From positions 1 through 64,000 of the forward strand of contig CADEDO010000007.1 of assembly GCA_902826115.1 (NCBI GenBank): 64,000 nucleotides of DNA, in the 5' to 3' direction. The DNA comes from an uncultured Nitrosomonas sp. Lineage in GTDB: Bacteria > Pseudomonadota > Gammaproteobacteria > Burkholderiales > Nitrosomonadaceae. Below the pieces are notes generated by a model. The model ran no database searches, was not told the origin of the DNA, and saw only the letters and a program-made list of their open reading frames with translations. Below are positions 4,043 to 28,900 of the stretch, one piece after another (position 1 is the first letter of the stretch; each line of letters starts with the position of its first letter). Position numbers and translations under genes: made by a program.

Positions 4043-4156
4043 CTAATAAAGCACCTCGTCGTGCGCAGCGGGGTATTAACTGCACTTTTCAACCAGCTTT
4101 CGCCCCAAGGAGCGGGGAGTTGAACCCGTAGAGATTAACAATAAATTATAAAGATC

Positions 4157-4681: not shown

Positions 4682-4811
4682 GTAAATCCATTGAGTGTTG
4701 ATTGCTGAATGAGATTAGCTGCTGTAGCTGTGCTTACTCGCCAAAAGAATGGCTTTCTTCAATTTCTTTGCTGTTTTTTTGTATTCTTAATAAGCCGATT
4801 CGTCTACTCTG

Positions 4812-4830
4812 AATAAGAAGCATTCTTATT
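4812..4830. promoter_or_regulatory. Fur box upstream of the mbtH-NRPS genes
   Basis: AATAAGAAGCATTCTTATT is a perfect palindrome around a central C and agrees at 16 of 19 positions with AATGAGAATNATTCTCATT. It lies 46 bp before the MbtH start codon. A CGTC that could be a PvdS/OrbS-type -10 lies just upstream at 4801-4804, but the expected TAAA 17 bp before it reads TGTA, so I do not call that promoter. Fur repression of the MbtH-thioesterase-PPTase-NRPS transcript is inferred. Confidence 0.75.
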
Positions 4831-4876
4831 AAAGAGAATTTAAAACTTATTGTCCTGTAAATTTGAGGTGTTGACT

Positions 4877-5092
4877 ATGACGAGTTGCTTTGATCGTGAA
4901 GATGGCGTGTTCCGTGTGTTGGTTAATCATGAAGAGCAATACTCTATTTGGCCGGAATGGAAAGCTGTTCCGGGTGGTTGGAAAGATACCGGTGTGTTAG
5001 GCGACAAGAAAACCTGCCTGGATCATATCGAGAAAGTCTGGACAGATATGCGTCCACTCAGCTTGAGACGATTCATGGACAATCACGTTTAG
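4877..5092 (+). CDS. MbtH-like NRPS accessory protein
   Basis: The protein is 71 aa from the ATG at 4877, with GAGG eight bases upstream; a TTG at 4850 is also in frame but less likely. It carries the family hallmarks: [10 protein letters not shown], then VPGGW, and [10 protein letters not shown] near the C-terminus. MbtH proteins bind NRPS adenylation domains and make them soluble and active. It is the first gene of the synthetase block, right behind a Fur box, so it probably serves all five A domains downstream. Confidence 0.95.
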
Positions 5093-5104
5093 TTCGCTGC
5101 AGCG

Positions 5105-5842: not shown

Positions 5843-6527
5843 GACCGTGCCCGCTGGCATTGAGGTTTGGTTACTCAAATTTGACTTTCACTCAACGCAA
5901 CTCATTAATGACTGGCCGTTACTGAGTATGGACGAGCAGATACGTACACAGCGTTTTCGTCAGCATGAAGATCAGGTACGCAGCATTGTGACACGGGCGG
6001 CATTGCGTCGTCTGCTAGCAGAACGTGTAATGTCATCTCCCCACGACATTCAGATTGAATTAGACAAGTTTGGTAAACCTCGACTACCAGCCTCTTACGG
6101 TGTTGAGTTTAATGTTTCACATGCGGGCGATTTTGCATTGATTGCATTATCTACTCGGGGAGAAATTGGAGTTGATATTGAATATCGTCATAGAGATGTC
6201 AGTAATCTGTGTATTCATGTGCTTTCCTCAGTGGAGCGTGCCCGGAGAGTCTGGTCAAATAAAAATTTCATCGACCTCTGGGTAGTCAAAGAATCTGTAT
6301 TAAAGGCGCTAGGGTTCGGCATTGCCGAATATCTGCAAGCCATTACGGTGTTACCTGATCATGGCGGAAGCTACCATGTGATGCATGATCAAACCGAATG
6401 GGCAGGAGTTAAAGCGTGGTCGATTGATGCACCAATTCACTATGTGGCGGCACTGGCATTGACAAAACATCGCAAGCTGGAGGTAGAACGCCACCCCTTC
6501 CTATCTTGTGTTTCCAAATGTACCTGA
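5820..6527 (+). CDS. Sfp-type 4'-phosphopantetheinyl transferase
   Basis: The protein is 235 aa if translation begins at GTG 5820, which has GAGG six bases upstream; a TTG at 5808 is in frame. Family marks are FNVSHAGDFA, GVDIEY (Asp119 and Glu121, magnesium ligands) and WVVKESVLKA (Lys157, Glu158). Sfp-type enzymes transfer phosphopantetheine from CoA to the conserved Ser of carrier domains. All seven carrier domains in this cluster (six PCP, one ACP) would need it. The start overlaps the thioesterase gene. A half Fur-like AATGAGAAT lies just after the stop. Confidence 0.92.
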   Translation: MQRLHLPKTVPAGIEVWLLKFDFHSTQLINDWPLLSMDEQIRTQRFRQHEDQVRSIVTRAALRRLLAERVMSSPHDIQIELDKFGKPRLPASYGVEFNVSHAGDFALIALSTRGEIGVDIEYRHRDVSNLCIHVLSSVERARRVWSNKNFIDLWVVKESVLKALGFGIAEYLQAITVLPDHGGSYHVMHDQTEWAGVKAWSIDAPIHYVAALALTKHRKLEVERHPFLSCVSKCT

Positions 6528-6630
6528 TCCAAATGAGAATTATATATAGAAGTAATGAAACACGAACTTCACGTTCGGATTGTAGAGAATTTACTTGTAT
6601 CAAAGAATGTAAATTGATTAGGTGTAAATA

Positions 6631-9600: not shown

Positions 9601-11928
9601 TCGCTTGCTGAACTTTTGCATCAAGTACGGGAAGATGCGCTGATTGCGCAATCTTTCCAAGATCTCCCATTCGAGCAGTTGGTCGAAGCACTGCACCCGC
9701 AAAGGGATTTGCGTCATAACCCGCTATTTCAGGTAACCATCAACCATCTGCAAAAAGATTACCGGATGCTTCAACAGCTTTCCGGATTGATAGTTACTGA
9801 TTACATCCTCCCGGAGCAGGCGGCGCAATTGGAATTCAGGCTCGAAACGGTCGAATTGCTCGATGGCAGCGTAAGCGCCAGTTTTATTTATGCGGCTGAT
9901 TTGTTTGAATCGGATGGGATTGAAAGATTGGCGCATCACTTTATCCGTATTCTACAAACATTGGCGGCGTACCCGCAAACAGCCATCAGTGAGATCGACC
10001 TATTAAGTGATAAAGACAAGGAGCAGCTCAAAATTTGGGGGAATCATGCGCCGTGTACTGCGATTAACCAACCGGTTCACCATCTCATAGAACAGCAAGC
10101 GAATAAATATCCGCAAATGACGGCGGTAATCTCGAATTGCATCGAATTGAGTTATGCGGAACTCAATTGCAGGGCGAATCGACTGGCACATCGCCTGATC
10201 AGTTTGGGTGTTAAGCCGGAAATACGCGTTGGTATTGCCATCGAGCGTGATTCTGTTGAATTGATAGTGGGTCTTCTGGCTATCTTGAAGGCGGGTGGCG
10301 GTTATGTCCCGCTGGATCCTGCCTATCCGATAGAACGCCTGAATCACATGATTGAAGACAGTGCCATTCAGTTTCTGCTGACACAAACACATATCAAACC
10401 AAGAATTCCGCATAGGGAAGGGATGGAATTACTGGAACTTGATGCGCTCGATCTTAGCAATGAGGTGCAGGAAAATCCTCGGATTGCATTGCACGGCGAG
10501 AATTTGGCGTATGTCATTTATACCTCAGGATCTACTGGTCGTCCCAAAGGGGTACCAGTTGCACATGGTCCTTTAGCGATGCATTTGACAGCGATCCAGG
10601 AAATTTACGACGTTCAACCCAGTGATCGGGAATTGATGTTTTTCTCAATGAATTTTGATGCAGCAGCAGAACAATGGATTACCCCTCTGACTCAGGGCGC
10701 CACGCTTGTGCTCTCTTCCACAAACGATTTGGCGGGCGAGGGTTTCGTAGAACTAATCGAAAAACATCGGATAACCATTCTGCATCTTCCCCCCGCTTAT
10801 TTGCGCATGCTGTTACCGCTGATAGAAGGCAAAGAACATGTCGTACGCACCTGTATCGCCGGCGGTGAAGCATGGTATACCTCCGATGTGATCGCTGCGC
10901 AGGCGATGTTCCAAGGTGTCAGGCTGGTAAACGCATATGGTCCGACTGAAACGGTGATAACACCGGCGGCATGGGTGAGTCATACGAGTGAAAAGACTGG
11001 AGCACAGGTCGGGGGCGATCATGCCCCGATTGGCCGCTCTATTGGCGCACGCAATCTGTATGTCCTGGATACAGAACTCAACCTTGCACCTGCGGGCACA
11101 ACCGGGGAACTCTATGTAGGCGGTGAAGGATTGGCGCGTGGTTATCATGATAGGCCAGCATTGACCAGTGAGCGCTTTGTTTCCGATCCTTTTAGTCAGA
11201 CCGGAGGCCGTCTCTACCGTACAGGTGACTTGGTTCGTTGGCGCGGCGATGGACAGCTTGAATATTTGGATCGTATCGATCATCAGATCAAGATTCGCGG
11301 TTTCCGCATTGAGTTGGGTGAAATCGAAGCCCAATTGCATGCCCAGGCGGAAGTGCGTGAAGCTGTCGTTGTCGCTCATGAAGGGTGCAGTGGGATACGT
11401 TTAGTCGCCTATGTGACGGCGCATCAGGGAATTCAGCTTAACCCGTTGCTATTAAAAACGGCATTAGGTAACACGCTACCCGATTATATGATCCCCGGCC
11501 TGTTCATTTTCCTGGATGTGTTGCCACTTAATCCCAACGGCAAAATAGACCGAAAAGCATTGCCTTCTCCCGAGCAGTTTGACAAATCGGATTATGAGCC
11601 ACCTGCTGATGCAACTGAAATGACTATTGCGGAAATATGGGCTGATATCTTAGGGATTCCTCAGGTTGGATTACATAACAATTTTTTTGATTTGGGCGGG
11701 CATTCGTTATTGCTGATCAAAGTCAAACACAGATTGGAAACGCATTTAAGTGTATCTATAGCCATTGTGGATCTTTTTAGATATACCACCGTTGCAAGCT
11801 TGGCGAAATATTTGAGTCAAGGGGACAACAACACGGGGCATGCATCTTTGCAGCGCCATCGGGATCGGGCGCAGCGGCAGCGTGGCGCGTTCATTCAACG
11901 AAAACAGAAAATAGAGAGGACGCATTGA
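6631..11928 (+). CDS. NRPS loading and first module: FAAL-PCP-C-A-PCP
   Basis: 1,765 aa. Residues about 10-575 are a fatty-acyl-AMP ligase (FAAL)-type adenylation domain: A3 motif YTSGSTATPKG near 178 and YGLAEATLF near 331, with a DMGLIGG segment typical of that family. A carrier domain follows (GGNS, Ser624). Next come a C domain (about 690-1110; HHIISDG, His820, His821, Asp825), an A domain (about 1140-1640; YTSGSTGRPKG at 1297-1307, FDAAAEQW at 1342-1349, NAYGPTE at 1434-1440) and a PCP (LGGHS, Ser1692). My alignment to GrsA gives the code D-A-E-H-I-G-A-I-T-K, whose substrate I do not know. The enzyme would load a fatty acid and join it to the first amino acid, as the PvdL start module does for pyoverdine. 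Its stop overlaps the PKS start (TGATG). Confidence 0.95.
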   Translation: MSTRLIPSRRYPDNIVVHLQTLARERPADTALIVVSAEGEAFIDRKFAYASLDLQVKALAAVIQKKYLPGERALLLLNNDEHYVISFLACLYAGIIAVPIFPPESVREKHLARLIAIANDAQASCILTTSEFLPLISSAAIAQFAKADILAVDTIEQSNASRWHAHTPKGDEIAFLQYTSGSTATPKGVMVSHHNLMVNARAFEEGMSINADDIFVSWLPLYHDMGLIGGLLQPIHRGIPAILMTPRFFIERPIRWLEVIAYYRATVSGAPNFAFQLCVERVRSTQLQGLDLSSWRVAFSGAEPVRRDTMLAFIERFKSTGFSAGTIYPCYGLAEATLFVTGGVRGEGVRAHEFSSELLAQGKAEMVAQGIPIIACGFPASNHAVKIFDPEKLMPLPDGHVGEIWTDGPSLACGYWQRPQETAENFLDHDGGRWLRTGDLGFIHARQLYIMGRRKDLIIIRGQNIYPQDIELIIEEEVEAVRKGRVAAFAVEHTEGESIGVAVEVSRSMQKLIPTETLVEALSEAVSASCHESLSVVVLLNPGALPKTSSGKLQRSACRQGWRERTLDAYAIYEYGHFVLGGSSPSSQALLDETEIAVATVWKTVLACTELGREDHFFAIGGNSLKVAQVAARISDQWHIPFTPRSLFQYPRLHECAAEIKHLLSGNSSSPVTDNRILPCNDEISSLPLSHGQQSLWFLWQLDPFSTAYHVQYAVRLSGVLDRPAFQASFQDLIERHESLRTIFRVNAAGSVEQVIQPVSPLAITDIDLLDLAVSQREQNVAEEVRSMTSLPFDLTRDPLLRVALIRVTENENIMIIIMHHIISDGVSMQILLNEFAAFYQAHVQGKAADLDHLPIQYSDYTFWQKNWLEAGEKDRQLIYWQNYLGNEHPLLMLPVDRARQLATSYRAARYRFDLPLDVLEKLRQLTLERGATLFMALLTAFQVLLFRHTGQQDIRVGVPIANRNRIETSGLIGFFVNTQVLRSQLHGRMSLAELLHQVREDALIAQSFQDLPFEQLVEALHPQRDLRHNPLFQVTINHLQKDYRMLQQLSGLIVTDYILPEQAAQLEFRLETVELLDGSVSASFIYAADLFESDGIERLAHHFIRILQTLAAYPQTAISEIDLLSDKDKEQLKIWGNHAPCTAINQPVHHLIEQQANKYPQMTAVISNCIELSYAELNCRANRLAHRLISLGVKPEIRVGIAIERDSVELIVGLLAILKAGGGYVPLDPAYPIERLNHMIEDSAIQFLLTQTHIKPRIPHREGMELLELDALDLSNEVQENPRIALHGENLAYVIYTSGSTGRPKGVPVAHGPLAMHLTAIQEIYDVQPSDRELMFFSMNFDAAAEQWITPLTQGATLVLSSTNDLAGEGFVELIEKHRITILHLPPAYLRMLLPLIEGKEHVVRTCIAGGEAWYTSDVIAAQAMFQGVRLVNAYGPTETVITPAAWVSHTSEKTGAQVGGDHAPIGRSIGARNLYVLDTELNLAPAGTTGELYVGGEGLARGYHDRPALTSERFVSDPFSQTGGRLYRTGDLVRWRGDGQLEYLDRIDHQIKIRGFRIELGEIEAQLHAQAEVREAVVVAHEGCSGIRLVAYVTAHQGIQLNPLLLKTALGNTLPDYMIPGLFIFLDVLPLNPNGKIDRKALPSPEQFDKSDYEPPADATEMTIAEIWADILGIPQVGLHNNFFDLGGHSLLLIKVKHRLETHLSVSIAIVDLFRYTTVASLAKYLSQGDNNTGHASLQRHRDRAQRQRGAFIQRKQKIERTH

Positions 11929-14900
11929 TGAATAGCTCTGAAAAATTAACGCAAAACGTAGAAATTGATATTGCGATCATTGGTATGGCATGCCGTTTCC
12001 CGGGCGCGAACGATGTCAATGCGTTTTGGCATAATCTACGGGAAGGCGTTGAGTCAATCACGTTCTTTAGCGATGAGGAATTGCTCGAACTTGGTGTATC
12101 TGCCGAGGTGTTGAATGATCCCCATTACATTAAAGCAGGCGCTCATTTAAGCGATGTCGATTGCTTCGATGCGTCTTTTTTTGGATATACGCCTCGGGAA
12201 GCAGCAGAAACAGATCCGCAACATCGATTGTTTCTGGAGGTGGCATGGCAAGCCTTGGAAGATGCCGGTTACGATACTTCGCGGTACGCCGATCCGGTCG
12301 GCGTATACGCTGGATGTGGCGTGAATACTTATCTGATGCTGAACTTGCTATCCAGCGGGCGTATGGCGGATAAACACGATATTTCTTCGTTGCAAGGGCT
12401 AATGAATGGTAACAATAAAGATTCGATGACCACCACGGTCGCATATAAGCTTAATTTACGCGGCCCCGGAATTACAGTACAGACAGCCTGTTCCACTTCT
12501 CTTGCGGCCACTCATGTTGCTTGCCGCGGACTGCTCAATCATGAGGCCGATATGGCTATTGCAGGGGGCGTCTGGGTAAATCTGTTACATGAGGGTGGAT
12601 ATCATTATCAGCCTGGCGCAATCCTCTCACCGGATGGTCATTGCCGTGCTTTTGATGCAAAAGCAGCAGGAACGGTCATCGGTAGTGGGGTGGGTGTCGT
12701 AGTATTGAAACGACTGGCCGATGCGCTGGCGGATGGCGATACCATTCACGCGGTGATTAAAGGTTCTGCGATCAATAATGATGGCTCCGCTAAAATCGGT
12801 TATACCGCTCCCAGTGTGGAAGGGCAAGCAGAAGTGATACTGGCCGCTCAGTCGATTGCCGGTATTTCCGCAGACACGATCAGTTATATTGAAACACATG
12901 GCACCGGTACCACCATCGGTGATCCGATAGAAATTGCGGCATTAACGCAGGCTTTCCGGGAAAGCACCGACAAACGGGGATTTTGTGGCGTTGGTTCGGT
13001 CAAGACCAATGTAGGGCATTTGGATGCAGCAGCAGGAGTGGCGGGGTTGATCAAGGCAACACTTTCACTCAAGCACCAGATTTTGCCGCCCAGTTTGAAT
13101 TTTGAGCAACCCAATGCACAAATCGATTTTTCCTCGAGCCCTTTCTACGTGAATACGGTGGGTAAGGTCTGGGAGAGTGGTGCGACGCCACGCCGTGCCG
13201 GTGTCAGTTCGTTTGGCATCGGTGGAACCAATGTACACATGATTGTTGAAGAAGCTCCACCAATCCTCCCATCCGGTCCCTCACGCGAATGGCAGATACT
13301 CATGGTTTCAGCACGCAGTCGGGATGCGCTGGAAAATGCGGTGGTGCGTTTGCAGAATCATATCGTTGCGCATCCAGAACAGCCATTGGCTGATGTCGCC
13401 TATACGCTGCAGACCGGGAGAAAGCATTTTTCGCATCGGACGATTGCGCTATGCCGTGATCATGATGATGCTGGGATGTTGTTAAAGAACCGGGATGGCG
13501 ATCGTTTTCTGATGCAAAAAGTAGCCGTTGAAAATCGCTCTGTCACCTTCCTGTTTCCCGGCCAGGGCGCACAATATGTCGATATGGCGCGCGATCTTTA
13601 TCAGTATGAGCCAGTATTTCGTGAAGAATTCGATCGTTGCCTGCGACTATTAAAATCCCACCTTGATTTTGATTTATTCAAACTGATATACCCGGACGCA
13701 AACGAGGAGGCGCGGATTTCCGCTTCAGCACGGCTGGAGCAGACCGAAGCTACACAACCCGCGCTGTTCGTTATTGAATATGCCTTGGCTCAGCTATGGA
13801 TGTCATGGGGAATTCAACCTGCATCGATGATCGGACATAGTGTGGGGGAATACGTGGCTGCCTGCCTGGCAGGGGTATTTTCCCTGGAAGATGCCTTGTG
13901 GCTGGTTGCTATGCGAGGGCGTCTGTTACAACAAATGGAAACAGGCGCCATGCTGGCTGTTATGCTGCCTGAAACAGAACTTGCGCCTTATGTGATCGAA
14001 GGGTGTGATTTGGCAGCGGTTAACGGACCAGCACTGTGCGTGTTATCTGCGCCAACCGCAGTGATGGAAATTGTGGAAAAGAATCTGACCGAAAATGGCA
14101 TTGCAAGCCGGCACTTGCATGTTTCACATGCATTTCATTCCAGCATGGTGGATTCCATATTGCCTGTTTTTGTCGAGATGGTTACCAAGATTAGGTTGCG
14201 TCCACCCAAAATTCCATTTTTCTCTAATCTGAGTGGGGATTGGATTACACCTCAGGAAGCAATGGATGGCGGTTATTGGGGGCGGCATTTACGTGGAACA
14301 GTACGTTTTAACGATGGTTTGCAAAAATTGCTGGTTGATCAGGCACAGATTTTATTGGAAGTCGGGCCTGGAGAAACATTGATAACGCTGGCGCAACGCC
14401 ATCCTTTGGCAAAACCTGAGCAACTCATGCTGTCGTCGTTACCTCATCCCAGTAAAGGCCATGTAGCCCAGAAGCACTTATATCTTAATTTGGGCAAGCT
14501 TTGGTTGAATGGTGTGATGATTGACTGGCAAGCATTCTATGCGCATGAACGCCGACATCGTGTTTCATTGCCGACGTATCCGTTCGAGCGTCAATCTTAC
14601 TGGATTAAACCCGGCGAATCGAATGCACAAGCTGCTTCTAAGCCAGGCAGTCATTCGGCTGCGGGGTCAAAAGAAGCAGAAAATGTTCTTGTACATTCAA
14701 GCAATGATTGGCTTTATGTACCTTCATGGCGGCGGGCCGATGAAATTAATTCTGACAGCTTTGTTCCTGAAACAGCCAGTACTTATTTAATTTTCAGCGA
14801 TGAGCATGCGCTCAGCACCGCTTTGATTGAGTGTTTGTTGTGTTTGGGCGTCAATCCCGTTGTGGTTTCTGCTGGTACAACATTCCAACGTAAGAGTAGG

Positions 14901-16526
14901 CATAGCTATATCCTTTGTCCTAGGGAACAACAGGACTTCGACTTGTTGTTTCAGAGTATCCGCGAGGAAGGTAAAACGCTGGGTCAAATCTTTCATCTTT
15001 GGAGTTTAAGTGAAGAAAACACAGTGAGATCTGAAGCAGAAAGCCTGACCAGGAATTTCTACAGCCTGCTTAATCTGGCAAAGTCTCTGGAAAATTCCAA
15101 GACGCTTATTCCGTCTGGTAAGCAGGTAGGTATTACCATTGTAACCAATCAATTGGCTGATGTTACCGGTGTGGAAACGTTGTGTTCAGAGAAGGCGTTT
15201 CTGTTGGGGCCATGCAAAGTCATTCCACAGGAATACTCAAATCTGGATTGCCGCATCATCGATATTGAATTACAGCCGTCGGATGAGGCTATGCAGGCCC
15301 GGCTGGCAAAACAAATTCTCACTGAGTTACGAACAGATACCGGTACTTCTATTGTGGCCTACCGCGGGCCCTATCGCTGGACTCCATTTTTTAAACCGGC
15401 ACAACCTCCTTCAGTTGTAAAAAACCGTCTCAAGTCAGGAGGCGTTTATTTGATTACCGGCGGACTCGGCGGCATCGGCTTAGCGGTGGCGGAATATTTG
15501 GCTCGGACCCAGCAAGCAAAATTGGTGCTTCTAGGCCGTTCCATTATTCCCGCGCGTGAACAATGGCAAGAAATTTTATCTGCACTCGGCAAAGAAGATT
15601 CACTGCGGCGCAAAATAAAAAATATCATGCAGCTGGAAAAATTGGGTGCCAAGGTACTGATAGTGAATGCTGATGTTGCAAACCTGACTGAATTAAAGAT
15701 CGTTGTTACTAAGGCACGGCGATTGTTCGGTGCTATTGATGGGGTGATTCATGCGGCAGGCGAGGTTAGCAGCGGACTAATGTCAACCAAGACAGAAGAG
15801 ATGATTGCGCGGGTATTTGCACCTAAAGTGCAAGGAATGCAGGCATTGCAAGCGGTATTCAAGGATGATCCTATTGATTTCATGTTGTTATGCTCATCAC
15901 TGGCTACGATTGCAGGCGGTCTTAGCAAGGTGGATTACTGCGCGGCTAACGCTTATCTGGATGCAGCGGCTCATGTTGCTTATCGTAAATCCGCCTATCC
16001 GGTTATTTCAATCAATTGGGATAGCTGGCGGGAAGTTGGCATGGCTGCAGGCATGGAGATGCCGGAAGGCGTCGGGATTTCTCCCAGAGAAGGCGCGAAG
16101 GTATTCGAGCAGATTGTGAATGGTCCGAATATCCCGCAAATTATTGTTTCAACAGTTGATCTGTCGGCACGATTGCGTCAGACCCAGCACGATCTGATTG
16201 CACAACCGTTTACTTTTACCCTGACAGCCAAGACAGGAAGATTCCCAAGACCGGCATTGCCAACGGTATTTAAATCCCCAGAAAGTGATCTGGAAACAGG
16301 TATTGCGGAAATTTGGCAGAGTCTGCTGGGAATAGAAGCTATCGGCGTGGATGATAATTTATTCGAATTGGGTGGCGACTCATTGTTAGGAATACAGTTG
16401 TTATCCAGAGTGAGAACAAGTTTTTCCGTTGATTTGCATCCGGCGGATTTCTTCAGATCGCCTACCATCACAAGATTGGCCGCATTGGTCGAGACAAAAT
16501 TGCTCAATGAAATTGAATGTTCATAA
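11928..16526 (+). CDS. Type I polyketide synthase module KS-AT-KR-ACP
   Basis: 1,532 aa from the ATG at 11928, which shares its A with the preceding TGA and has AGAGG upstream. The KS (about 12-435) has Cys188 in TACSTS, His324 in ETHGTGT and His364 in NVGHL. The AT (about 545-840) has Ser638 in GHSVGEY; its HAFH motif at 734-737 points to malonyl-CoA. The KR (about 1160-1340) has TGGLGGIG at 1177-1184, Tyr1337 and Asn1341. The ACP has Ser1485 in LGGDS. No DH, ER or methyltransferase motif is seen, so the product is a beta-hydroxy unit. Placed after an amino-acid module, it should extend that residue by two carbons to a statine-like gamma-amino-beta-hydroxy acid (inference). Confidence 0.95.
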   Translation: MNSSEKLTQNVEIDIAIIGMACRFPGANDVNAFWHNLREGVESITFFSDEELLELGVSAEVLNDPHYIKAGAHLSDVDCFDASFFGYTPREAAETDPQHRLFLEVAWQALEDAGYDTSRYADPVGVYAGCGVNTYLMLNLLSSGRMADKHDISSLQGLMNGNNKDSMTTTVAYKLNLRGPGITVQTACSTSLAATHVACRGLLNHEADMAIAGGVWVNLLHEGGYHYQPGAILSPDGHCRAFDAKAAGTVIGSGVGVVVLKRLADALADGDTIHAVIKGSAINNDGSAKIGYTAPSVEGQAEVILAAQSIAGISADTISYIETHGTGTTIGDPIEIAALTQAFRESTDKRGFCGVGSVKTNVGHLDAAAGVAGLIKATLSLKHQILPPSLNFEQPNAQIDFSSSPFYVNTVGKVWESGATPRRAGVSSFGIGGTNVHMIVEEAPPILPSGPSREWQILMVSARSRDALENAVVRLQNHIVAHPEQPLADVAYTLQTGRKHFSHRTIALCRDHDDAGMLLKNRDGDRFLMQKVAVENRSVTFLFPGQGAQYVDMARDLYQYEPVFREEFDRCLRLLKSHLDFDLFKLIYPDANEEARISASARLEQTEATQPALFVIEYALAQLWMSWGIQPASMIGHSVGEYVAACLAGVFSLEDALWLVAMRGRLLQQMETGAMLAVMLPETELAPYVIEGCDLAAVNGPALCVLSAPTAVMEIVEKNLTENGIASRHLHVSHAFHSSMVDSILPVFVEMVTKIRLRPPKIPFFSNLSGDWITPQEAMDGGYWGRHLRGTVRFNDGLQKLLVDQAQILLEVGPGETLITLAQRHPLAKPEQLMLSSLPHPSKGHVAQKHLYLNLGKLWLNGVMIDWQAFYAHERRHRVSLPTYPFERQSYWIKPGESNAQAASKPGSHSAAGSKEAENVLVHSSNDWLYVPSWRRADEINSDSFVPETASTYLIFSDEHALSTALIECLLCLGVNPVVVSAGTTFQRKSRHSYILCPREQQDFDLLFQSIREEGKTLGQIFHLWSLSEENTVRSEAESLTRNFYSLLNLAKSLENSKTLIPSGKQVGITIVTNQLADVTGVETLCSEKAFLLGPCKVIPQEYSNLDCRIIDIELQPSDEAMQARLAKQILTELRTDTGTSIVAYRGPYRWTPFFKPAQPPSVVKNRLKSGGVYLITGGLGGIGLAVAEYLARTQQAKLVLLGRSIIPAREQWQEILSALGKEDSLRRKIKNIMQLEKLGAKVLIVNADVANLTELKIVVTKARRLFGAIDGVIHAAGEVSSGLMSTKTEEMIARVFAPKVQGMQALQAVFKDDPIDFMLLCSSLATIAGGLSKVDYCAANAYLDAAAHVAYRKSAYPVISINWDSWREVGMAAGMEMPEGVGISPREGAKVFEQIVNGPNIPQIIVSTVDLSARLRQTQHDLIAQPFTFTLTAKTGRFPRPALPTVFKSPESDLETGIAEIWQSLLGIEAIGVDDNLFELGGDSLLGIQLLSRVRTSFSVDLHPADFFRSPTITRLAALVETKLLNEIECS

Positions 16527-16603
16527 TGTGATTGGCTTGACTTGAGAAATGTGAGTGCCCCGTAACAAGGTATCCCACCGAGGAATAAATCAGAGATTTT
16601 TTT

Positions 16604-19600
16604 ATGGCAGATAATGACGATCTTGCGCGACGACGAGCGCGCCTGACGCCGGAACAGCGTCAACGATTAACGCAGCGACTCCGGGCAAGCGGTGATTCAT
16701 TAAGACAAGCAACTACCACCATTCCACGCCGACCGGACGGTGAATTCGCAAATCTTTCCTATGCGCAGCAGCGGCACTGGTTTTTATGGCAATTGGATCC
16801 GCAGAGCACGGCATATCATCTGGGCGGCGCGCTGTGTTTGCTTGGGGAACTGGATATTGAAGCTTTGCAGGCAAGTTTCCAGGGGCTGATAACACGGCAT
16901 GAATCGTTGCGCACGGTTTTTCAGGTGGATGAAATAGGATTGCCGCAGCAGAAGATCGATGTGCAAGGGAAATTCGAACTGATTCGGATCGATTTGAGCG
17001 ATTTGCCGGTTGCGCAAAGTCGTCAGCGTGCGCATGAAGAAGCGCTACGGATCAACGTCACGCCGTTCGATCTGACGCAAGGGCCGCTACTGCGTGTGGC
17101 ACTCATCCGGGTGGCTGCGGAAGAACACCATTTGGTGGTAGTGATGCACCATATCATCTCGGACGCCTGGTCCAATCGTATCATTATCGATGAATTCGCT
17201 GCACGCTACCGTGCTCAGGTGGAAGGATTGGAATTTTCGCTGCCGCCGCTGGCGATTCAGTATGCAGATTATGCGCTATGGCAGCGCAACTGGCTGGAAG
17301 CGGGAGAAAAAGAGCGGCAGTTAACCTATTGGCGCAGTCAACTGGGAGAAATGCATCCGGTATTGCAATTGCCTACCGATCACCCGCGCACATCGACAGC
17401 AAATTACCGGGCGGCAAAGCATGATTTTGTGTTGCCAATTGCACTCGCGGCCCGCCTGCAGCGTCAGGCACAGGGTCGGGGAACAACGCTGTTTATGGCA
17501 TTGCTGACTGGTTTTCAGGCATTGTTATATCGCTATACCGGGCAAAGCGATCTGCGCGTGGGCGTACCGATTGCCAACCGTCATCGTGTCGAGATAGAGA
17601 ATATTGTCGGTCTGTTCGTGAATACCCAGGTACTGTGCAACCGCATCGACAGCCGCATGCCGCTGAGCAAGCTACTCGAACGAACCCGTGAGGCCGCGCT
17701 GGGTGCGCAGACGTACCAGGATCTACCGTTTGAGCAACTGGTGGAAGCGCTACAGCCGGAACGCAGTCTGCATCAGAATCCGCTGTTTCAGGTCATGTTT
17801 AATCACCTGCGCGAGGACTATCGCGCACTGGGGCAATTGCCCGGACTGACCGTTGAAGAATATGAACTCGGCGAGCGCGGTGCGCAGTTTGAATTGACGC
17901 TGGATACCGTGGAGAGACCGAACGGACGAATTGACGCACGTTTCACCTACGCCGCCGAATTGTTTGGGGCGGACACGATCAAGCGGTTGAGCGAACATTA
18001 TCTCAGGGTACTGGAACAACTGGCTGAAAGCCCGGAGCGATGTTTGGGCGACATCACGCTCTTAAGCGCAGCGGAATGGCAACAGCTAAAAGATTGGGGG
18101 GTTAACGGACGGCGCTATGCCAATACGGAACCGGTGCACCGCTTGATCGAGCGGCAGGTCAATGATTGTTCTGATGCAACTGCGCTTATTTTTGGCGATA
18201 CGGAGCTTAGTTACGCGCAACTGAATAGCCGGGCGAACCGGCTGGCACATCAACTGATTGCTTTGGGAGTGAAACCCGAGAGTCGGGTAGGGATTGCGGT
18301 GGAACGCTCGGTCGACATGGTGGTTGGGCTGCTGGCGACGCTCAAGGCAGGCGGTGCATACGTGCCGCTGGATCCGGCATATCCGCGGGAGCGGCTGAAT
18401 CACATGGTGACAGACAGCGCGATTGAACTATTGCTGACACAAAGTCATGTCAGAGAGCGGATTCCCCTTGCGGAAGGGTGCCATGTTGTGGAACTGGACA
18501 TGCTGGATTTAACGGACTGGCCGGACAATAATCCGGCAGTGAACCTGCACGGGGAACATCTGGCTTACATCATCTATACCTCCGGCTCCACCGGAAAACC
18601 TAAGGGCGCCGTTAACCGTCACGGTGCGCTGTATAACCGGCTGGTTTGGATGCAGGAAGCCTATTCCCTGGATCATGGCGATACTGTGTTGCAGAAAACA
18701 CCGTTCAGCTTTGATGTGTCAGTTTGGGAATTTTTCTGGCCATTAATGTACGGAGCGCGCCTGGCTATCGCTAATCCGGGTGATCACCGTGATGCCGCGC
18801 GGTTAATTGCACTCATTCAGCAGCACAAAGTAACGACGCTGCATTTTGTTCCGGCCATGTTACGGGCTTTTATGGCAGAAAGCGGTGTTGCAGCCTGCAG
18901 CAGCTTGAAACAAATTGTCTGTAGCGGGGAAGTGCTGCCATTGGAAATGCAAGAAGCCGTTTTCAGGCAACTCCCTAATGTCAAACTTTACAATCTCTAT
19001 GGACCGACGGAAGCGGCCATCGACGTAACCCATTGGACTTGCCGCGATGAAGCATCCAGTAATATTCCGATCGGGCAACCGATAGTCGCTACCCAAACCT
19101 ATATTCTGGATACCGATCTTAACCCGGTGCCACAAGGCGTGGCAGGGGAATTGTATCTTGGCGGCGCTGGACTTGCTCGCGGTTATCTGAATCGGCCTGG
19201 TCTGACAGCGGAGCGGTTCGTGGCGAGCTCGTTTGATGGGAATGGAGCGCGGCTCTACCGCACGGGGGATTGGGCGAGATGGCGATCGGACGGGCAGATT
19301 GAATATTTAGGACGGCTTGATCATCAGGTCAAGGTAAGAGGTTTCCGCATCGAATTGGGTGAGATCGAAACACAGCTATTGTTACAGCCGGGAATCAGAG
19401 AAGCAGTGGTGATGGTGAAAGAAGGATCCAGCGGCGCAAGACTTGTTGCCTATGTGTCGTGTCATGCGAAAAATGAGGTGGATACGGTCGAATTGTGCGG
19501 AGTATTGGGAAAATCCTTGCCCAGTTACATGATTCCATCGGCGATCATCGTGCTGAAGAGCCTGCCGTTGAATGCGAATGGCAAGGTGGATCGCAAACTG

Positions 19601-19933
19601 TTGCCCGAGCCGGAATTCAGTAACGCAGGTCAATACGAAGCGCCGCAAGGTGAAGTGGAAGAAACATTGGCGGCAGTCTGGATGGAAGTTCTGCAGCTTA
19701 AGCGGGTCGGACGAAACGATCATTTCTTTGAGCTGGGAGGGCATTCCCTGTTGATTCTGCAAGTTCGACAGAAATTACAACGCAACAGATCGCTTGCATT
19801 GCCGCTGCGGATGTATTTTGAGCATCCTGTTTTGCATGAAATCGCTGCGATGATACAGACGAGCTCCTTGGCTTCCAATCAGGGCGATGAATTGTCTGAA
19901 ATGTCTGAATTACTTGATTTATTGGAGAATTGA
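16604..19933 (+). CDS. NRPS module C-A(Ser)-PCP
   Basis: 1,109 aa. A short N-terminal docking-like segment precedes the C domain (about 45-475), whose core reads HHIISDA (His182, His183, Asp187; Ala replaces the usual Gly). The A domain has YTSGSTGKPKG at 658-668, FDVSVWEF at 703-710 and LYGPTE; my code reading is D-V-W-H-V-S-L-I-D-K, one residue from a common serine code (D-V-W-H-L-S-L-I-D-K). The PCP has LGGHS with Ser1048. It takes the chain from the PKS ACP and adds serine. The gene lies 77 bp after the PKS and runs directly into the next NRPS gene. Its C domain and the front of its A domain are almost base-for-base repeated in that next gene. Confidence 0.95.
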   Translation: MADNDDLARRRARLTPEQRQRLTQRLRASGDSLRQATTTIPRRPDGEFANLSYAQQRHWFLWQLDPQSTAYHLGGALCLLGELDIEALQASFQGLITRHESLRTVFQVDEIGLPQQKIDVQGKFELIRIDLSDLPVAQSRQRAHEEALRINVTPFDLTQGPLLRVALIRVAAEEHHLVVVMHHIISDAWSNRIIIDEFAARYRAQVEGLEFSLPPLAIQYADYALWQRNWLEAGEKERQLTYWRSQLGEMHPVLQLPTDHPRTSTANYRAAKHDFVLPIALAARLQRQAQGRGTTLFMALLTGFQALLYRYTGQSDLRVGVPIANRHRVEIENIVGLFVNTQVLCNRIDSRMPLSKLLERTREAALGAQTYQDLPFEQLVEALQPERSLHQNPLFQVMFNHLREDYRALGQLPGLTVEEYELGERGAQFELTLDTVERPNGRIDARFTYAAELFGADTIKRLSEHYLRVLEQLAESPERCLGDITLLSAAEWQQLKDWGVNGRRYANTEPVHRLIERQVNDCSDATALIFGDTELSYAQLNSRANRLAHQLIALGVKPESRVGIAVERSVDMVVGLLATLKAGGAYVPLDPAYPRERLNHMVTDSAIELLLTQSHVRERIPLAEGCHVVELDMLDLTDWPDNNPAVNLHGEHLAYIIYTSGSTGKPKGAVNRHGALYNRLVWMQEAYSLDHGDTVLQKTPFSFDVSVWEFFWPLMYGARLAIANPGDHRDAARLIALIQQHKVTTLHFVPAMLRAFMAESGVAACSSLKQIVCSGEVLPLEMQEAVFRQLPNVKLYNLYGPTEAAIDVTHWTCRDEASSNIPIGQPIVATQTYILDTDLNPVPQGVAGELYLGGAGLARGYLNRPGLTAERFVASSFDGNGARLYRTGDWARWRSDGQIEYLGRLDHQVKVRGFRIELGEIETQLLLQPGIREAVVMVKEGSSGARLVAYVSCHAKNEVDTVELCGVLGKSLPSYMIPSAIIVLKSLPLNANGKVDRKLLPEPEFSNAGQYEAPQGEVEETLAAVWMEVLQLKRVGRNDHFFELGGHSLLILQVRQKLQRNRSLALPLRMYFEHPVLHEIAAMIQTSSLASNQGDELSEMSELLDLLEN
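16753..18608 (+). repeat. Long direct repeat, copy 1 (C domain and A-domain front)
   Basis: This 1,856-bp block recurs at 20080-21935, offset 3,327 bp. By eye I find two mismatches (16762 T/C and 18586 C/T), both silent. It runs from the start of the C domain to just past the A3 motif SGSTGKPKG. Beyond it the two genes diverge at once. Confidence 0.9.
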
Positions 19934-22900
19934 TTGGAACTGAATAAGCAGGATATTGCCGAGCGATTTTCCGCGCTTTCCTCCGGCAAGCAAAAGACAT
20001 TTCTTAATGCATTGAAGGAGCGGGGAATTGATTTTTCTTTGCTGCCTATCATTCGACAATCTTCGGATAACCGTCCGATTCTTTCCTACGCGCAGCAGCG
20101 GCACTGGTTTTTATGGCAATTGGATCCGCAGAGCACGGCATATCATCTGGGCGGCGCGCTGTGTTTGCTTGGGGAACTGGATATTGAAGCTTTGCAGGCA
20201 AGTTTCCAGGGGCTGATAACACGGCATGAATCGTTGCGCACGGTTTTTCAGGTGGATGAAATAGGATTGCCGCAGCAGAAGATCGATGTGCAAGGGAAAT
20301 TCGAACTGATTCGGATCGATTTGAGCGATTTGCCGGTTGCGCAAAGTCGTCAGCGTGCGCATGAAGAAGCGCTACGGATCAACGTCACGCCGTTCGATCT
20401 GACGCAAGGGCCGCTACTGCGTGTGGCACTCATCCGGGTGGCTGCGGAAGAACACCATTTGGTGGTAGTGATGCACCATATCATCTCGGACGCCTGGTCC
20501 AATCGTATCATTATCGATGAATTCGCTGCACGCTACCGTGCTCAGGTGGAAGGATTGGAATTTTCGCTGCCGCCGCTGGCGATTCAGTATGCAGATTATG
20601 CGCTATGGCAGCGCAACTGGCTGGAAGCGGGAGAAAAAGAGCGGCAGTTAACCTATTGGCGCAGTCAACTGGGAGAAATGCATCCGGTATTGCAATTGCC
20701 TACCGATCACCCGCGCACATCGACAGCAAATTACCGGGCGGCAAAGCATGATTTTGTGTTGCCAATTGCACTCGCGGCCCGCCTGCAGCGTCAGGCACAG
20801 GGTCGGGGAACAACGCTGTTTATGGCATTGCTGACTGGTTTTCAGGCATTGTTATATCGCTATACCGGGCAAAGCGATCTGCGCGTGGGCGTACCGATTG
20901 CCAACCGTCATCGTGTCGAGATAGAGAATATTGTCGGTCTGTTCGTGAATACCCAGGTACTGTGCAACCGCATCGACAGCCGCATGCCGCTGAGCAAGCT
21001 ACTCGAACGAACCCGTGAGGCCGCGCTGGGTGCGCAGACGTACCAGGATCTACCGTTTGAGCAACTGGTGGAAGCGCTACAGCCGGAACGCAGTCTGCAT
21101 CAGAATCCGCTGTTTCAGGTCATGTTTAATCACCTGCGCGAGGACTATCGCGCACTGGGGCAATTGCCCGGACTGACCGTTGAAGAATATGAACTCGGCG
21201 AGCGCGGTGCGCAGTTTGAATTGACGCTGGATACCGTGGAGAGACCGAACGGACGAATTGACGCACGTTTCACCTACGCCGCCGAATTGTTTGGGGCGGA
21301 CACGATCAAGCGGTTGAGCGAACATTATCTCAGGGTACTGGAACAACTGGCTGAAAGCCCGGAGCGATGTTTGGGCGACATCACGCTCTTAAGCGCAGCG
21401 GAATGGCAACAGCTAAAAGATTGGGGGGTTAACGGACGGCGCTATGCCAATACGGAACCGGTGCACCGCTTGATCGAGCGGCAGGTCAATGATTGTTCTG
21501 ATGCAACTGCGCTTATTTTTGGCGATACGGAGCTTAGTTACGCGCAACTGAATAGCCGGGCGAACCGGCTGGCACATCAACTGATTGCTTTGGGAGTGAA
21601 ACCCGAGAGTCGGGTAGGGATTGCGGTGGAACGCTCGGTCGACATGGTGGTTGGGCTGCTGGCGACGCTCAAGGCAGGCGGTGCATACGTGCCGCTGGAT
21701 CCGGCATATCCGCGGGAGCGGCTGAATCACATGGTGACAGACAGCGCGATTGAACTATTGCTGACACAAAGTCATGTCAGAGAGCGGATTCCCCTTGCGG
21801 AAGGGTGCCATGTTGTGGAACTGGACATGCTGGATTTAACGGACTGGCCGGACAATAATCCGGCAGTGAACCTGCACGGGGAACATCTGGCTTACATCAT
21901 CTATACCTCCGGTTCCACCGGAAAACCTAAGGGCGTGGGGGTGGCGCATGGGCCGTTGGCAATGCATGTGCAATCAATTGGTGAGCTTTATGGTATGACT
22001 GCGGCAGATCGCGAGCTGCAATTTGCCTCGATCAATTTTGATGGTGCGCATGAGCGTTGGCTAGTGCCATTGGCTTTTGGTGCCGCATTGATGCCGCGAG
22101 ACAACGAATTATGGCCGGTTGACCATACGGTTGCTGAGATAGCCAAACATCGTATTACGATTGCTTGCTTTACCCCAGGTTATTTGCAGCAACTGGCGGA
22201 GTTTACCGGTAATGCTGGTCAGGATTTGCCGATTCGTTCCTACACGGTGGGCGGTGAAGCAATGAATCGCACCAGTTTTGATTTTGTGCAACAGACACTG
22301 CATCCACCACGCATTATCAATGGCTATGGTCCGACTGAAACAGTAATCACGCCACTGATTTTTAAAGCCTATCCGGGAACTCAATTTGATTCGGGTTATC
22401 TGCCGATTGGTTCACCGGTGGGGGACCGCACTGCTTATATTGTGGATGCTGAGATGAATCCGGTTGCGCAGGGTGTGACCGGTGAGCTGTATCTCGGTGG
22501 AGTGGGATTGGCACGAGGTTATCTGAACCGGCCGGATCTGACGGCGGAACGGTTCGTGGCGAACCCGTTTGACGGGAACGGGGAACGGCTCTATCGCACA
22601 GGGGATCTGGCGCGATGGCGATCGGACGGGCAGATTGACTATCTGGGGCGGCTTGATCATCAGGTCAAGGTAAGAGGTTTTCGCATTGAACTGGGTGAAA
22701 TCGAAACACAATTATTATTACAGCCGGAAATCAGAGATGCGGTAGTGGTAGCGATGGAAGGGCCTGGCGGTGCAAAGCTTGTGGGTTATATTGTACTGCA
22801 TGCAGGAAGCGAGGTGGACACGTCTGAACTGCGGGGATCCCTGGGGAATTCCTTGCCAGACTACATGATTCCATCGGCAATCATCGTGTTGGATAGCCTG

Positions 22901-25900
22901 CCGCTGAATGCGAATGGCAAGGTGGATCGCAAACTGTTGCCCGAGCCGGAATTTGCAGGTGCGGGTGACTATGAAGCGCCACAAGGGACAGTGGAAGAAC
23001 TATTGACTGCGATTTGGAAAGAAGTGTTGGGAATCGGCCAAGTTGGGCGCAATGATAATTTCTTCGAACTCGGGGGAGATTCTATTCTCAGTCTTCAGAT
23101 TGTGACCAAAGCGCGCCGTGCAGGCTGGAAGATCATGCCGCGGCAATTGTTCGAACGGCAGACAATTGCTGCACTGGCAAGTATTGCCAAGCCGCTGGAA
23201 GAGCTTGCTAAAACGATTCCTGCACAGCGTGATTTATCGGATATCACCGCGCCCATTCCCATGTTGCCGATTCAGCTTGATTTTTTTGCACAAGCGATAC
23301 CCAGGCGGCAGCACTGGAATCAGGCGGTACTGCTGAAAAGCCGCCAGCCTTTACAGGAAAATTGGCTGGATCAGGTATTGCAAGCTGTTGTACAGCATCA
23401 TCAGGCATTGCATTTTTGTTATAGGGAACAAACCAACGGTCAATGGCAGCAAATGAACGCTGAATCCAGTACGCAGGAAGTGTTGTGGGTTCGGCAGGCG
23501 GCAGATGCTGAACAGTTACTGGCGCTCTGTAATGAAGCCCAGCGCAGTCTGAATCTGCAGCAAGGATCGCTGCTACGCGCCATGCTGGTGGATATGGCGG
23601 ATCATACTCAACGTTTGCTGTTGGTTGTGCATCATTTGGTGATTGATGGTGTTTCCTGGCGCATTCTGATAGAGGATCTGGAGATCGCCTATCATCAGGC
23701 GATGAATCATGCAGCTATTAACTTGTCCGAAGTGACTACCGGTTACCCGGTATGGACTCAGCGGCTGCAACAGTATTCGGATGGTCATGCGGTTGAGTTT
23801 GCCTATTGGCAAGGCCAGGCGAATGTACCCGTTTCCCTTCCTTGTGATTTCCCAGAAGGTTCCAATAGTACGTTTAACCATACTCGCATCACCGCGAGGC
23901 TTGATCAGACGCGAACTCAGGCGTTGCTCAAAGACGCACCGGTTGCCTATCGCACGCAAGTCAACGATTTGCTGCTTACCGCGCTAGGCAGCGCCTTATG
24001 TCAATGGAGCGGGCATCAGAAGATTCTGGTAAACCTTGAAGGCCATGGACGTGAAGATCTTTATCCTGATATCGATCTGTCCAGGACGATTGGATGGTTT
24101 ACTACGCTGTTTCCGGTAATCCTCGATCCATCAGGTGATTTATCACAAAGAATCAAGCGTATTAAGGAGAGTTTGCGGCAAATTCCCAGTAAAGGATTGG
24201 GTTATGGTTTATTCAAACACTACGGCACTGCAGCACAACGGCAAATTATCCACGGTCTTCCCAAGGCGCAAGTGGTATTTAATTATTTGGGGCAATTTGA
24301 TTCCAGTTTCGGAGAACAGGCTCCTTGGATGTTGGCTGATGAAGCGCTAGGTGATTTGATGGATCATGACGTGAACCAGCAGCATGACCTTTCGATTAAC
24401 AGCTACATCTACAGTGGTGAGCTGTGTCTGGAAGTCAACTACAGTGAAGTCCGCTATGCCAAAACAGCAATTGAAGCATTTGTCGAATCGTTACTGATTG
24501 AACTCAAAGCGATTATTGATCATTGTGGGCGCGGTGTTCGCGGAGTGACACCTTCTGATTTTCCTTTGGTTCAGCTGACTCAGGATGAGTTGGATGACTT
24601 ACCTATTCCTGTTGAGCAACTTGAGGATCTTTATCCGCTGTCACCGATGCAAACCGGCATGCTGTTTCATAGTGTATTTGATCAGAATGGCGGCATGTAT
24701 CTCAACCAACTAAGCGCTGATATTGAGCATCTGTCGGTGGAGCGATTCAGAGCTGTCTGGCAGTCTGCGATTGACCGACATGAGATATTGCGAACCGGTT
24801 TTGTGCAGGAAGGAAAAATACCGTTGCAATGGGTAGCGAAAGTAGCTGAATTACCTTTCATTGTGCATGACTGGCGCAATCAGAATATGCGCTCTTTAGC
24901 TTATCAAAAGCGTGATTTGGATGCGCTCGCGCAATCAGAGCACGCGTCAGGCATCGATCTGAAAAAACCACCGCTGATTCGGATTGTCGTGGTACGCCTC
25001 ACTGATGAGCGATATCACGTCATCATGACCATCCATCATTTACTGTTGGATGGCTGGAGTACTTCTCAATTGCTGGGTGAAGTGCTGCGGCATTATGGTG
25101 GTGCGACGCTGCCATCGCTTCGCACGCACTACCGGGATTTCATTGAATGGTTGCGTGATCGAGATCAGAAAGCATCTGGAGCTTATTGGCAGGAGCGTTT
25201 ACGCGATATCACTGAATCCACCCGATTAGCGGATGTGTTTCCAGCATCAACAACGCATGAGAGCTATGGAGAATCCATTCATCCGCTCAACCGGACCTTG
25301 AACGATGATTTAGTTCATTTTTGCAAACGCGAACACATTACGATCAATACAGTAATACAAGCTGCGTGGGCTTTGTTGCTTGGTCATTATACGGGTCAGC
25401 AAACGGTTACCTTTGGGGTGACTGTGGCGGGCAGGCCGGCAGATTTGCCGGGAGCGGATCAGATACTCGGACTCTTCATCAATACCTTGCCAGTGAGTAT
25501 TGCACTGAAACCTGAATGGGCGGTCGGTACGTGGCTCCGGGATTTACAAATACAAAACTTGGCTTCTCGCGAACATGAACACACGCCACTGTATGAAATT
25601 CAGCGTTGGGCGGGGCAAAGCCGGCAGGGACTGTTTGATAGTATTTTAGTGTTTGAAAATTATCCCATTGATGAAGCATTCAAACAGCATACGCCGGGCG
25701 GATTGGCTTTTTCCGGTGTCAAAGGCCGGGAGGCCACCAATTATCCGATGACCGTATCGGTGGTAGAGAATGATGGATTGACCTTGCAATATGGGTATGC
25801 CTGCAAAGATTTTGCGCAAGCAACGGTCCGTTGTATCGCGGTGCAAGTTGAACAACTGCTGCGTGAAATCATGCGAAACGAAGTCAAATGTTTAGGTGAC

Positions 25901-28900
25901 ATCACGCGATTGAGCTTGGCGGAATGGCAACAGCTGAAAGACTGGGGGATTAACGAACGGTGCTATGCCAATACCGAGCCGGTGCATCGTTTGATTGAGC
26001 GGCAAGCGAGTGAGCATCCTGATGCGATCGCACTCATTTTTGGTGAGATGACACTCAGTTACGCTGAGCTGAACCGGCAGGCAAATCGGCTGGCGCACCA
26101 ATTGATTACGCTGGGAGTCAAGCCGGAGAGCCGGATAGGGATTGCAGTGGAACGCTCGATTGATATGCTGGCTGGGTTGCTGGCGACGCTCAAAGCAGGT
26201 GCAGCGTATGTATCATTGGATCCGGACTATCCGCGCGAGCGGTTGGATCACATGGTGGCGGACAGCGCGATTGAATTGCTGTTGACGCAAAGCCCGCTGC
26301 GGGCACGGATTCCGCATGCTGCGACTTGTCATGTGCTGGAATTGGATACACTGGATTTGACCGGCTGGCCGGAAAACAATCCCGATGTGGGACTGCAGGG
26401 TGGGCATCTGGCCTATATTATTTATACTTCCGGTTCTACCGGGAAACCCAAGGGTGTGGGTGTATCCCATTTTGCCCTGTCTCAACATGTTCAGGCCGCG
26501 ATAGATTCATTTAATCTGAGTATCGCAGATCGAGTATTACTGTTCTCGACGATTAATTTTGATGCTTTTATCGATCAGTTTTTCCCCGCGTTATGTGTCG
26601 GAGCAAGTATTGTTTTACGCGACTCGACCTTATGGGATAGCGAGACTTTTTATCGTGAATTGCTTGCCAGGCAGATTACAGTCGCTGACTTAACGACTGC
26701 GTACTGGCAATTATTGATCAGTGATTTTGCCAAGATAGGCGCGCGCCATTACGGTTCACTCAGGCAGATGAATGTAGGTGGCGAACGAATGCCACCTGAA
26801 GCATTGGATATATGGCGTGAGGCTGGATTGGATGCGGTCACATTATTTAATGCTTACGGACCTACTGAAGCGGTTGTCACAGCAACTTTTGCAGATTGCA
26901 GTACACATTTACCCAAGCAGGTTGCCCGTTCTAACAATATTGCGATTGGCAGACCACTGGCCGGACGTCATATTTACTTGCTTGATGCCAACTTGGCGCC
27001 TGTACTGCCTGGAGTTTCCGGTGAACTTTATATCGGTGGAGAATTGCTCGCGCGCGGATATTTGAATAGACCAGAATTAACTGCGGAGCGGTTTATCGCC
27101 GATCCTTTTGATCAAAAAGGAGGGCGGCTTTACCGCACCGGAGATCTGGCGAGATGGCGTTCGGACGGGCAAATAGAATATATGGGCCGTCTGGATCATC
27201 AAGTTAAGGTCAGGGGATTTCGCATTGAACTCGGAGAAGTGGAGGCGCAGCTTTTATTACAACCGGAAGTAAGAGAAGCGGTAGTGATCGCCAAGGAAGG
27301 ACCCAGCGGAGTAAGGCTGGTAGCCTATATTTCGTTGCATGCAGGCAGTACGCTGGATACCACGGTGCTGCGTGAATCGATGGAAAAAGCTTTGCCGGAT
27401 TACATGATGCCATCGGTAATTGTTGTTTTGGAGCGCCTGCCGTTGAGTGTGAACGGAAAGGTGGATCGCAAATTGCTGCCCGAACCGGAATTTGTCAGCG
27501 CGAACCAATATGAAGCGCCGCAAGGTGAGGTGGAAGCCGCATTAGTTGCGATCTGGGTGGAAGTACTTGGCATAAGTCAGATAGGGCGCAGCGATAACTT
27601 CTTCGAACTGGGAGGAGATTCGATCCTCAGCTTGCAGATTGTCACTAAAGCGCGCCGGACGGGTTGGAAAATCACGCCGCGACAATTATTCGAGCAACAG
27701 ACAATTGCTGCATTGGCGCAGGTGGCAGAGGTCGTATCTGAATCCTTGGTCGAGGAATCTCAGCCTGAGAATGCTTGTCTGGAAGATTATCTGGATGCTG
27801 GAATAATGGCTGAGTTGCCATTCGGAAATAGTCAAATAGAAGATATCTATCCCTTGTCGCCGACGCAAGAAGGGATGTTATTCCATACACTGGCGGCGCC
27901 AGGTACCGGACTGTATGTGAATCAGATGAGTGTTGCAGTGGAAGGGCTTGATGCGGAACGGCTGGCACATGCTTGGCAACAAATGGTCATCCGGCATCCG
28001 GTATTGCGCACAGGATTTTTATGGCAAGCGGGACTTGTCCATCCGTTGCAGATTGTATTTAAACAAGTCGAAGCTACTGTCACTTATATGGATTGGCGCG
28101 GTAATCATCATCTGGAAGAGTGCATTGTTGCCTATGCGGATGAAGAATTAAGGCGAGAGTTTGATTTTCTTAATCCTCCGATTCGATTGAGTTTGATCCG
28201 GATAGACGAGAACCGCCATCAATTAGTATGGACCAAACACCATATATTGCTGGATGGTTGGGGTGATTCCATGCTGATCAGTGATTGGTTGCGTTGCTAT
28301 AACGGCGAAACGCTTGCGCAACCAGGACCGGATTATAGTGTTTATGTGCGCTGGCTTGCAAAGCAAGATAAGCAGATGAACCAGCATTTCTGGCAAGCTG
28401 AGCTTGGTGACACGGAAGGTCCGACACTCTTAGCGAAATCGATCAATACGATAGTCAAAAAAGACGGTCGATCCGATTTTGCACAGATTTATACGCATCT
28501 GAATCCCGAAGAAACACGCCGGTTGCAAGCGTTTGCACAACAAATGCACATTACGTTGAATACTTTCGTGCAAGCGGCATGGGCGTTACTGTTACAACGC
28601 TACACAGGGAAACAGACGGTGATTTTTGGTGCCACCGTCGCAGGTCGACCACCCAGCTTGCCCAAAGCTGATCAGATTCTTGGCTTGTTTATCAATACCA
28701 TTCCTATTCCGGTTGAGCGACGCAGTGATTTGACAGTCGGCGAATATTTAAGCGCGTTGCAGGCGACCAATGCCCGTTTGCGCGACTATGAATATACATC
28801 GCTGGCAGATATCCAGCGTTGGGCAGGTTTTTCCGGTCAGCCGCTGTTTGACAGTATTGTCGTATTTGAAAACTATCCTATCGAAGCCGCATTGCGCAGT

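Follow-up and report, generated by a model that had tools for sequence, protein, structure and literature searches.

Front halves of two adjacent NRPS modules are very probably homogenised by recurrent gene conversion in Nitrosomonadaceae

Concerted evolution of PKS and NRPS domains has been described by Medema et al. (2014, PMC4256081), whose model shields diverged domains from conversion. The locus studied here, in the window (the whole 64,000-nucleotide stretch of an uncultured Nitrosomonas sp. that was analysed), resembles those clusters in that paralogous domains group by genome, their position notwithstanding. It differs in its scale, since whole domains in a few clusters were involved there, whereas here the unit is a half-module with a boundary inside the A domain, traced through about 20 species, and the Nitrosomonadaceae series extends that work with partial tracts, both directions of conversion and fusion products. 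A second described process is A-core exchange, with hotspots between motifs A2 and A4 and near A5, in which the C domain and the A-sub/T part are kept (Baunach et al. 2021, PMC8097286; Calcott et al. 2020, PMC7486941). There, cores are discordant with their flanks, and the core switching that we describe below for module M2 fits this pattern; however, the near-identity in the window would reflect conversion of flanks, not exchange of a core, and the two are usually discussed apart. The wolG1/wolG2 NRPS bifurcation (Booth et al. 2022, PMC9205934), a duplication with neofunctionalisation, shares with our locus near-identical duplicated NRPS parts and a marked identity drop over a recombined A-domain core. 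In contrast, here old modules appear to be kept similar by conversion, and the closest analogue of wolG1/wolG2 is genome G123, with tandem M2 copies that carry different cores. The parts of PMC8097286 that review the microcystin synthetases mcyB/mcyC describe intragenomic transfer between neighbouring modules, a likeness to our locus, with specificity changing there but preserved in the window. Concerted evolution and A-core exchange are both already known kinds of event, and the value of the locus lies in an unusually clear natural series. In the open-licence literature searched, Nitrosomonas and Nitrosospira NRPS siderophores included, we found no earlier report of this cluster or of the species series.

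The features of the cluster are collected in Table 1. Its neighbours include a hydroxamate-type N-oxygenase, a GNAT acyltransferase, a TonB siderophore receptor, an ECF sigma factor and an export ABC transporter, and because of these we read it as a putative lipopeptide-siderophore-like cluster, with a predicted chemical product and predicted substrates. A PvdQ-like acylase (48517-50706) adjoins it, scoring 190 bits, far under the family cut-off of 950, and suggests a pyoverdine-like removal of the acyl chain. No TauD hydroxylase domain was found in the scanned NRPS and PKS proteins of the window cluster. Identity with variochelin, raised by the common fatty-acyl/NRPS/PKS order, was dropped, as no A code of the window was matched to a variochelin position.

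Table 1. Positions of the NRPS and PKS features discussed in the text, numbered within the window.
Feature	Position	Strand	Remarks
Loading gene	6631..11928	+	acyl-AMP ligase-like domain, carrier, M1 (C-A-T, code DAEHIGAITK)
PKS module KS-AT-KR-ACP	11925..16526	+	directly upstream of M2; presumed M2 donor
M2 gene	16604..19933	+	stand-alone C-A-T module
M2-specific N-terminus	16604..16752	+	RRARLTPEQRQRL type, unrelated to that of M3; 5' homology limit
R1 copy in M2	16753..18608	+	C from C1 LSYAQQRHW plus A N-terminal part to A3 SGSTGKPKG; exact tract 16763-18585
M2 A-core	18609..19093	+	serine-type DVWHVSLIDK; ~38% nucleotide identity to M3 core
M2 post-core segment R2	19100..19736	+	about A6 to T; A6-A9 79% identical to M3 copy; apparently no recent conversion
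Second NRPS gene	19934..31840	+	M3 (C-A-T plus second C-family domain read as E), M4 (C-A-T), M5 (C-A-T), thioesterase
M3-specific N-terminus	19934..20079	+	LELNKQDIAERF type
R1 copy in M3	20080..21935	+	exact tract 20090-21912
M3 A-core	21936..22430	+	DGECTGGITK; same position in all readable relatives
M3 post-core segment R2	22436..23072	+	about A6 to T

The first-pass annotation had reported a near-perfect repeat with two silent differences that ends right behind SGSTGKPKG, and base-by-base comparison confirmed it. The two blocks, here called R1, are 1,856 bp long, lie at an offset of 3,327 in the adjacent modules M2 and M3, span the C domain from C1 and the A domain as far as A3 (YTSGSTGKPKG), and are the only full R1 sites in the window's own genome. 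Their two mismatches (16762, T/C; 18586, C/T) are silent third-position changes (TAT/TAC and GGC/GGT) at the extreme edges, no more than 23 bp from the block ends, and between them runs an uninterrupted identical tract of 1,823 bp. The R1 proteins are identical over 618/618 residues. Upstream of the blocks, ungapped identity drops straight to background, and downstream it does so directly past the A3 codons. In the homologous downstream part, from A6 to T, M2 and M3 differ at 206 of 717 bases, against 3 of 1,857 in the repeat region, and shuffling of the differences gave the longest identical run an approximate probability of 1e-109. The binding-pocket codes, when re-derived, were those reported earlier, namely the serine-type DVWHVSLIDK in M2 and DGECTGGITK in M3. 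Since the window's genome is a draft of 123 contigs, a few internal R1 differences may have been averaged away.

Synonymous divergence between M2 and M3 varied sharply by segment in the window, with dS of 0.00 in the C domain, 0.01 over A1-A3, saturation in the core, 0.82 over A6-A9 and 1.97 in the T domain. At the R1 positions, silent-site divergence between species ranged from 0.4 to saturation, and the window's M3 was separated from its nearest sampled relatives (G080, G101, G027 and N. supralitoralis) by a C-domain dS of 0.41-0.61. The 'very recent event' of the first-pass annotation is thus borne out by a within-genome dS of about 0, as opposed to 0.4-0.6 to the nearest sampled species; zero changes at the roughly 441 synonymous sites of the exact tract place dS since the last conversion below 0.007. 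From these segment values it follows that M2 and M3 are both old and that R1 alone is young. Phylogenetic trees gave a consistent picture. In the R1 tree, copies sorted by genome with M2 and M3 fully mixed (17 module-label changes, against a shuffle mean of 17.8), and a single M2 clade was rejected by the AU test (p=3e-10). The A-core tree separated M2 from M3 by 1 label change, the A6-T tree required 2, with G129, in which A6-A9 was converted too, as the lone exception, and the N-termini sorted by module across the family. Within a genome, then, R1 paralogues are closer to each other than orthologues are between species, silent sites included, while the flanks (N-terminus, core and A6-T) evolve independently, module by module. 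The sequences indicate that M2 and M3 are ancient modules, orthologous across Nitrosomonadaceae.

These patterns bear directly on the earlier suggestion of a module duplication. A recent tandem duplication of a C-A-T module, after which one of the copies received a different A-core, would account for the near-identical C-A(N) block and has a parallel in the tandem M2 copies of G123, with their different cores. However, M2 and M3 hold the same two positions family-wide, with module-specific N-termini, cores and A6-T parts; similarity in the window does not extend over the whole module, as dS over A6-T is about 0.8 or more; and a recent copy would have left the flanks identical too, or would need both flanks to have been replaced. 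We therefore rejected recent duplication for the window, where the M2 A6-T part and N-terminus are orthologous to those of other species, and consider it very improbable.

The same gene order was found across Nitrosomonas and the Nitrosospira/Nitrosovibrio group, with M2 as a stand-alone gene and M3 as the first module of the large gene. Both C-A(N) blocks were readable, in whole or in part, in 21 genomes, and the C segments of M2 and M3 were 99.6-100% identical in 10 of these, 92-98% identical in three and at most 84% identical in eight. Within-genome R1 identities by BLAST reached 100% in N. supralitoralis and G129, 99.9% in G107, 99.8% in G131, 99.7% in N. oligotropha Nm75 and G070, 99.4% in G116, 98.9% in G120 and 98.8% in G029, with 97.7% in G115 over the part read only. 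Because relatives homogenise R1 independently, the pattern argues for ongoing gene conversion, as the first-pass annotation had allowed, and not for a one-off duplication; it is not constant, since the eight genomes with C-domain identity of 84% or less lack recent homogenisation. Outside the family, the outgroups Pseudoduganella, Duganella and Halomonas carry serine codes at both M2 and M3, and their cores pair by genome; recent homogenisation is not seen in them either, as matching stretches are 82-86% identical. A general tendency of NRPS loci was rejected as an explanation: internal repeats of at least 95% identity and at least 300 bp occurred in 8 of 77 NRPS loci (the choice of query biases this sample), and of these loci only the two from Nitrosomonas, L027 and L028, showed the C1-to-A3 pattern at such identity.

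An assembly artefact, in which there is really one copy or two diverged copies have been collapsed to a consensus, had been named as a potential refutation. The 123-contig draft and the position of both differences at the block ends would be compatible with it, and in many draft relatives contig ends fall inside R1, as expected for an unresolved repeat. However, the two copies have different flanks, each sits in an intact reading frame of its own, the assemblies of unconverted relatives resolve a distinct pair of copies, and the single-contig genomes G029, G116 and G129, three of the ten near-identical cases, show the same pattern at 98.8-100% (G115 shows 97.7% over the part read). The refutation therefore fails, and we regard an artefact as having very little chance of being correct. 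The repeat does call for caution, as draft assemblies break, or may blur, at R1; in G091, G121 and G122 (L172, L174, L175), N runs begin at A3 or soon after, marking scaffold gaps at the repeat edge.

Full-length R1 blocks begin no more than a few tens of bases from C1 and end 31-57 bases past the first base of A3. In Nm34, identity is limited to about residues 146-466, and in G029 it ends near residue 606; together with G077, these genomes carry partial tracts that end inside homologous sequence. The first-pass annotation had placed the breakpoint where the substrate core begins, and identity does end just past A3. But because the Nm34 and G029 tracts end earlier, the A3 end reads as a homology limit set by the differing cores, with no dedicated site, and a motif-directed breakpoint at A3 was rejected. 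In G129, the flanks are near-identical on both sides and the cores still differ. As for direction, the R1 pairs of the window and N. supralitoralis are nested in a clade of M3 copies (G108, G010, G101, G080), so that conversion there most likely ran from M3 to M2, judging by tree topology; the copies of G115 and G116 group with the M2 copy of G010, and the same reasoning suggests M2 to M3.

Replacement of both R1 copies together by horizontal transfer from another species is even less probable than duplication or artefact. Inter-strain recombination does happen in this cluster, as the G027 and G101 mosaic described below illustrates, but the two window copies are each other's closest relatives (99.9%, with outside donors at no more than about 89%), and the same allele would have had to arrive in two separate transfers. 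Purifying selection that keeps both blocks identical because they need the same partners, although compatible with identical amino-acid sequences, is refuted by synonymous sites that are identical within genomes and diverge between species from dS 0.4 to saturation, and we give it almost no credence.

Recurrent gene conversion, by which the C-A(N) half-modules of two old, adjacent modules are homogenised in many Nitrosomonadaceae lineages, is thus very probably the correct reading of R1. The direct repeats lie 3.3 kb apart, and homologous recombination between them, presumably of the RecA type, would mostly resolve as conversion, with flanks not exchanged, and sometimes as crossover. Neither the N-termini nor the A-cores of the two modules are homologous, so that conversion would halt at C1 in the 5' direction and shortly past A3 in the 3' direction; the cores would thereby be shielded and substrate specificities would stay distinct. 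In the window, the last conversion probably spanned the entire homologous block and was very recent, with M3 the likeliest donor and M2 the recipient. On a longer time scale, and separately, the M2 core has been swapped among three specificity types via the same conserved flanks, in at least one case probably by copying from M4, and crossovers between the repeats would occasionally yield an M2-M3 fusion or a module duplication.

The core exchange leaves its own record. M2 cores are of three types, serine-type DVWH[V/I/L]SLIDK (as in N. oligotropha Nm75), the glycine-like DILQLGM[I/V]WK (as in Nm34) and DGEDHGTVTK (as in Nv4), each in both genera, whereas the M3 core stays DGEC[T/I]GGITK in relatives. 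At least 5 switches of M2 core type were counted on the M2 A6-T tree and at least 10 on the M2 R1 tree. Core phylogeny is discordant with that of the flanks, and near-sister backbones carry different codes, as in the single-contig G069, whose backbone is Nm34-like but whose core is of the serine type, against DILQLGMIWK in Nm34. When cores of different types are compared, similarity ends at A3 and returns after about residue 840, which matches the A2-A4 and A5/A6 boundaries. In G011 and G077, the M2 core nests with M4 cores, namely those of Nm34 and G069, a placement that suggests copying from M4 into M2, and the core that G007 carries at the M2 position clusters with the window M4 core. The window itself does not show its near-identity to be a product of core exchange: its M2 core type is that of N. 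supralitoralis and G101, with a vertical-looking dS of 0.23 to G101. Specificity-core replacement, as first proposed, therefore holds for the family, in that three M2 core types have been exchanged between species, but this is an older process, distinct from the conversion, and the window near-identity does not date it. Elsewhere in the line, the M4 core (window 26400-26950) alternates between DADDNG[A/V]VTK in the window and Nm75 and DGEDHGTVTK in N. supralitoralis, G029, Nm34 and G010, and in Nitrosovibrio Nv4 (L030 15182-16764 and 19781-21363) the M3 A domain with its core has been copied into the next module, at 99.8% over 1,583 bp, leaving two modules with the code DGECIGGITK.

Fusions of M2 and M3, with an M2-type N-terminus and an M3-type downstream part, were found in five genomes. 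In four of these (G096, G118, G069 and G007), an N-terminus of M2 type leads to a carrier domain of M3 type; the G096 fusion retains the M3 core, placing its junction in or before the core, and the other three retain the M2-position core, placing theirs past it. G027, read as the fifth, runs from an M2-type N-terminus through an interrupted C domain into the M3 block, and no core of M2 was found in it. The interruption is an IS66-like element (L106 1-130; L107 contig end), which splits the sole remaining C domain of the fused M2/M3 region, with a short target duplication, AACATC, as read. G027 and G101 (L106 and L147) are near-identical past A3, with patches of 92-97%, and only about 91% identical over the C-A(N) block, a mosaic that suggests inter-strain recombination. 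In G123 (L160 659-7513), the tandem M2 copies precede M3; their C-A(N) blocks are near-identical, and their cores are of DGEDHGTVTK type and then serine type, with a frameshift at a G run in the first copy that could stem from decay or sequencing error. Recent duplications that span E-C-A boundaries lie beside the M2/M3 fusions of G069 (L173, reverse strand, 3540-12053; 97.4% over 3,998 bp) and G007 (L111, reverse strand, 9118-16896; 93.6% over 3,267 bp).

The identical C domains presumably act on different partners, that of M2 joining a PKS-bound donor onto serine and that of M3 attaching a seryl donor to another residue. Provided that the line is colinear, such different donors and acceptors would imply relaxed C-domain selectivity, and C-domain gatekeeping, a disputed question, becomes directly testable on natural M2/M3 proteins. 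For NRPS engineering, the natural fusions, together with the boundaries at A3 and A6, offer ready designs for A-core swaps. The series also documents, over many species, how NRPS modules remain interchangeable, their front halves being recopied with the specificity core kept separate. It is conceivable, though unlikely, that R1 (C1 to A3) and R2 (A6 to T) serve as recombination arms around a heterologous A-core 'cassette'. If so, conversion would keep the arms identical, and their identity would permit core swaps and module deletion or duplication with the assembly line unbroken, which would amount to an evolved or self-sustaining generator of siderophore diversity in ammonia oxidisers.
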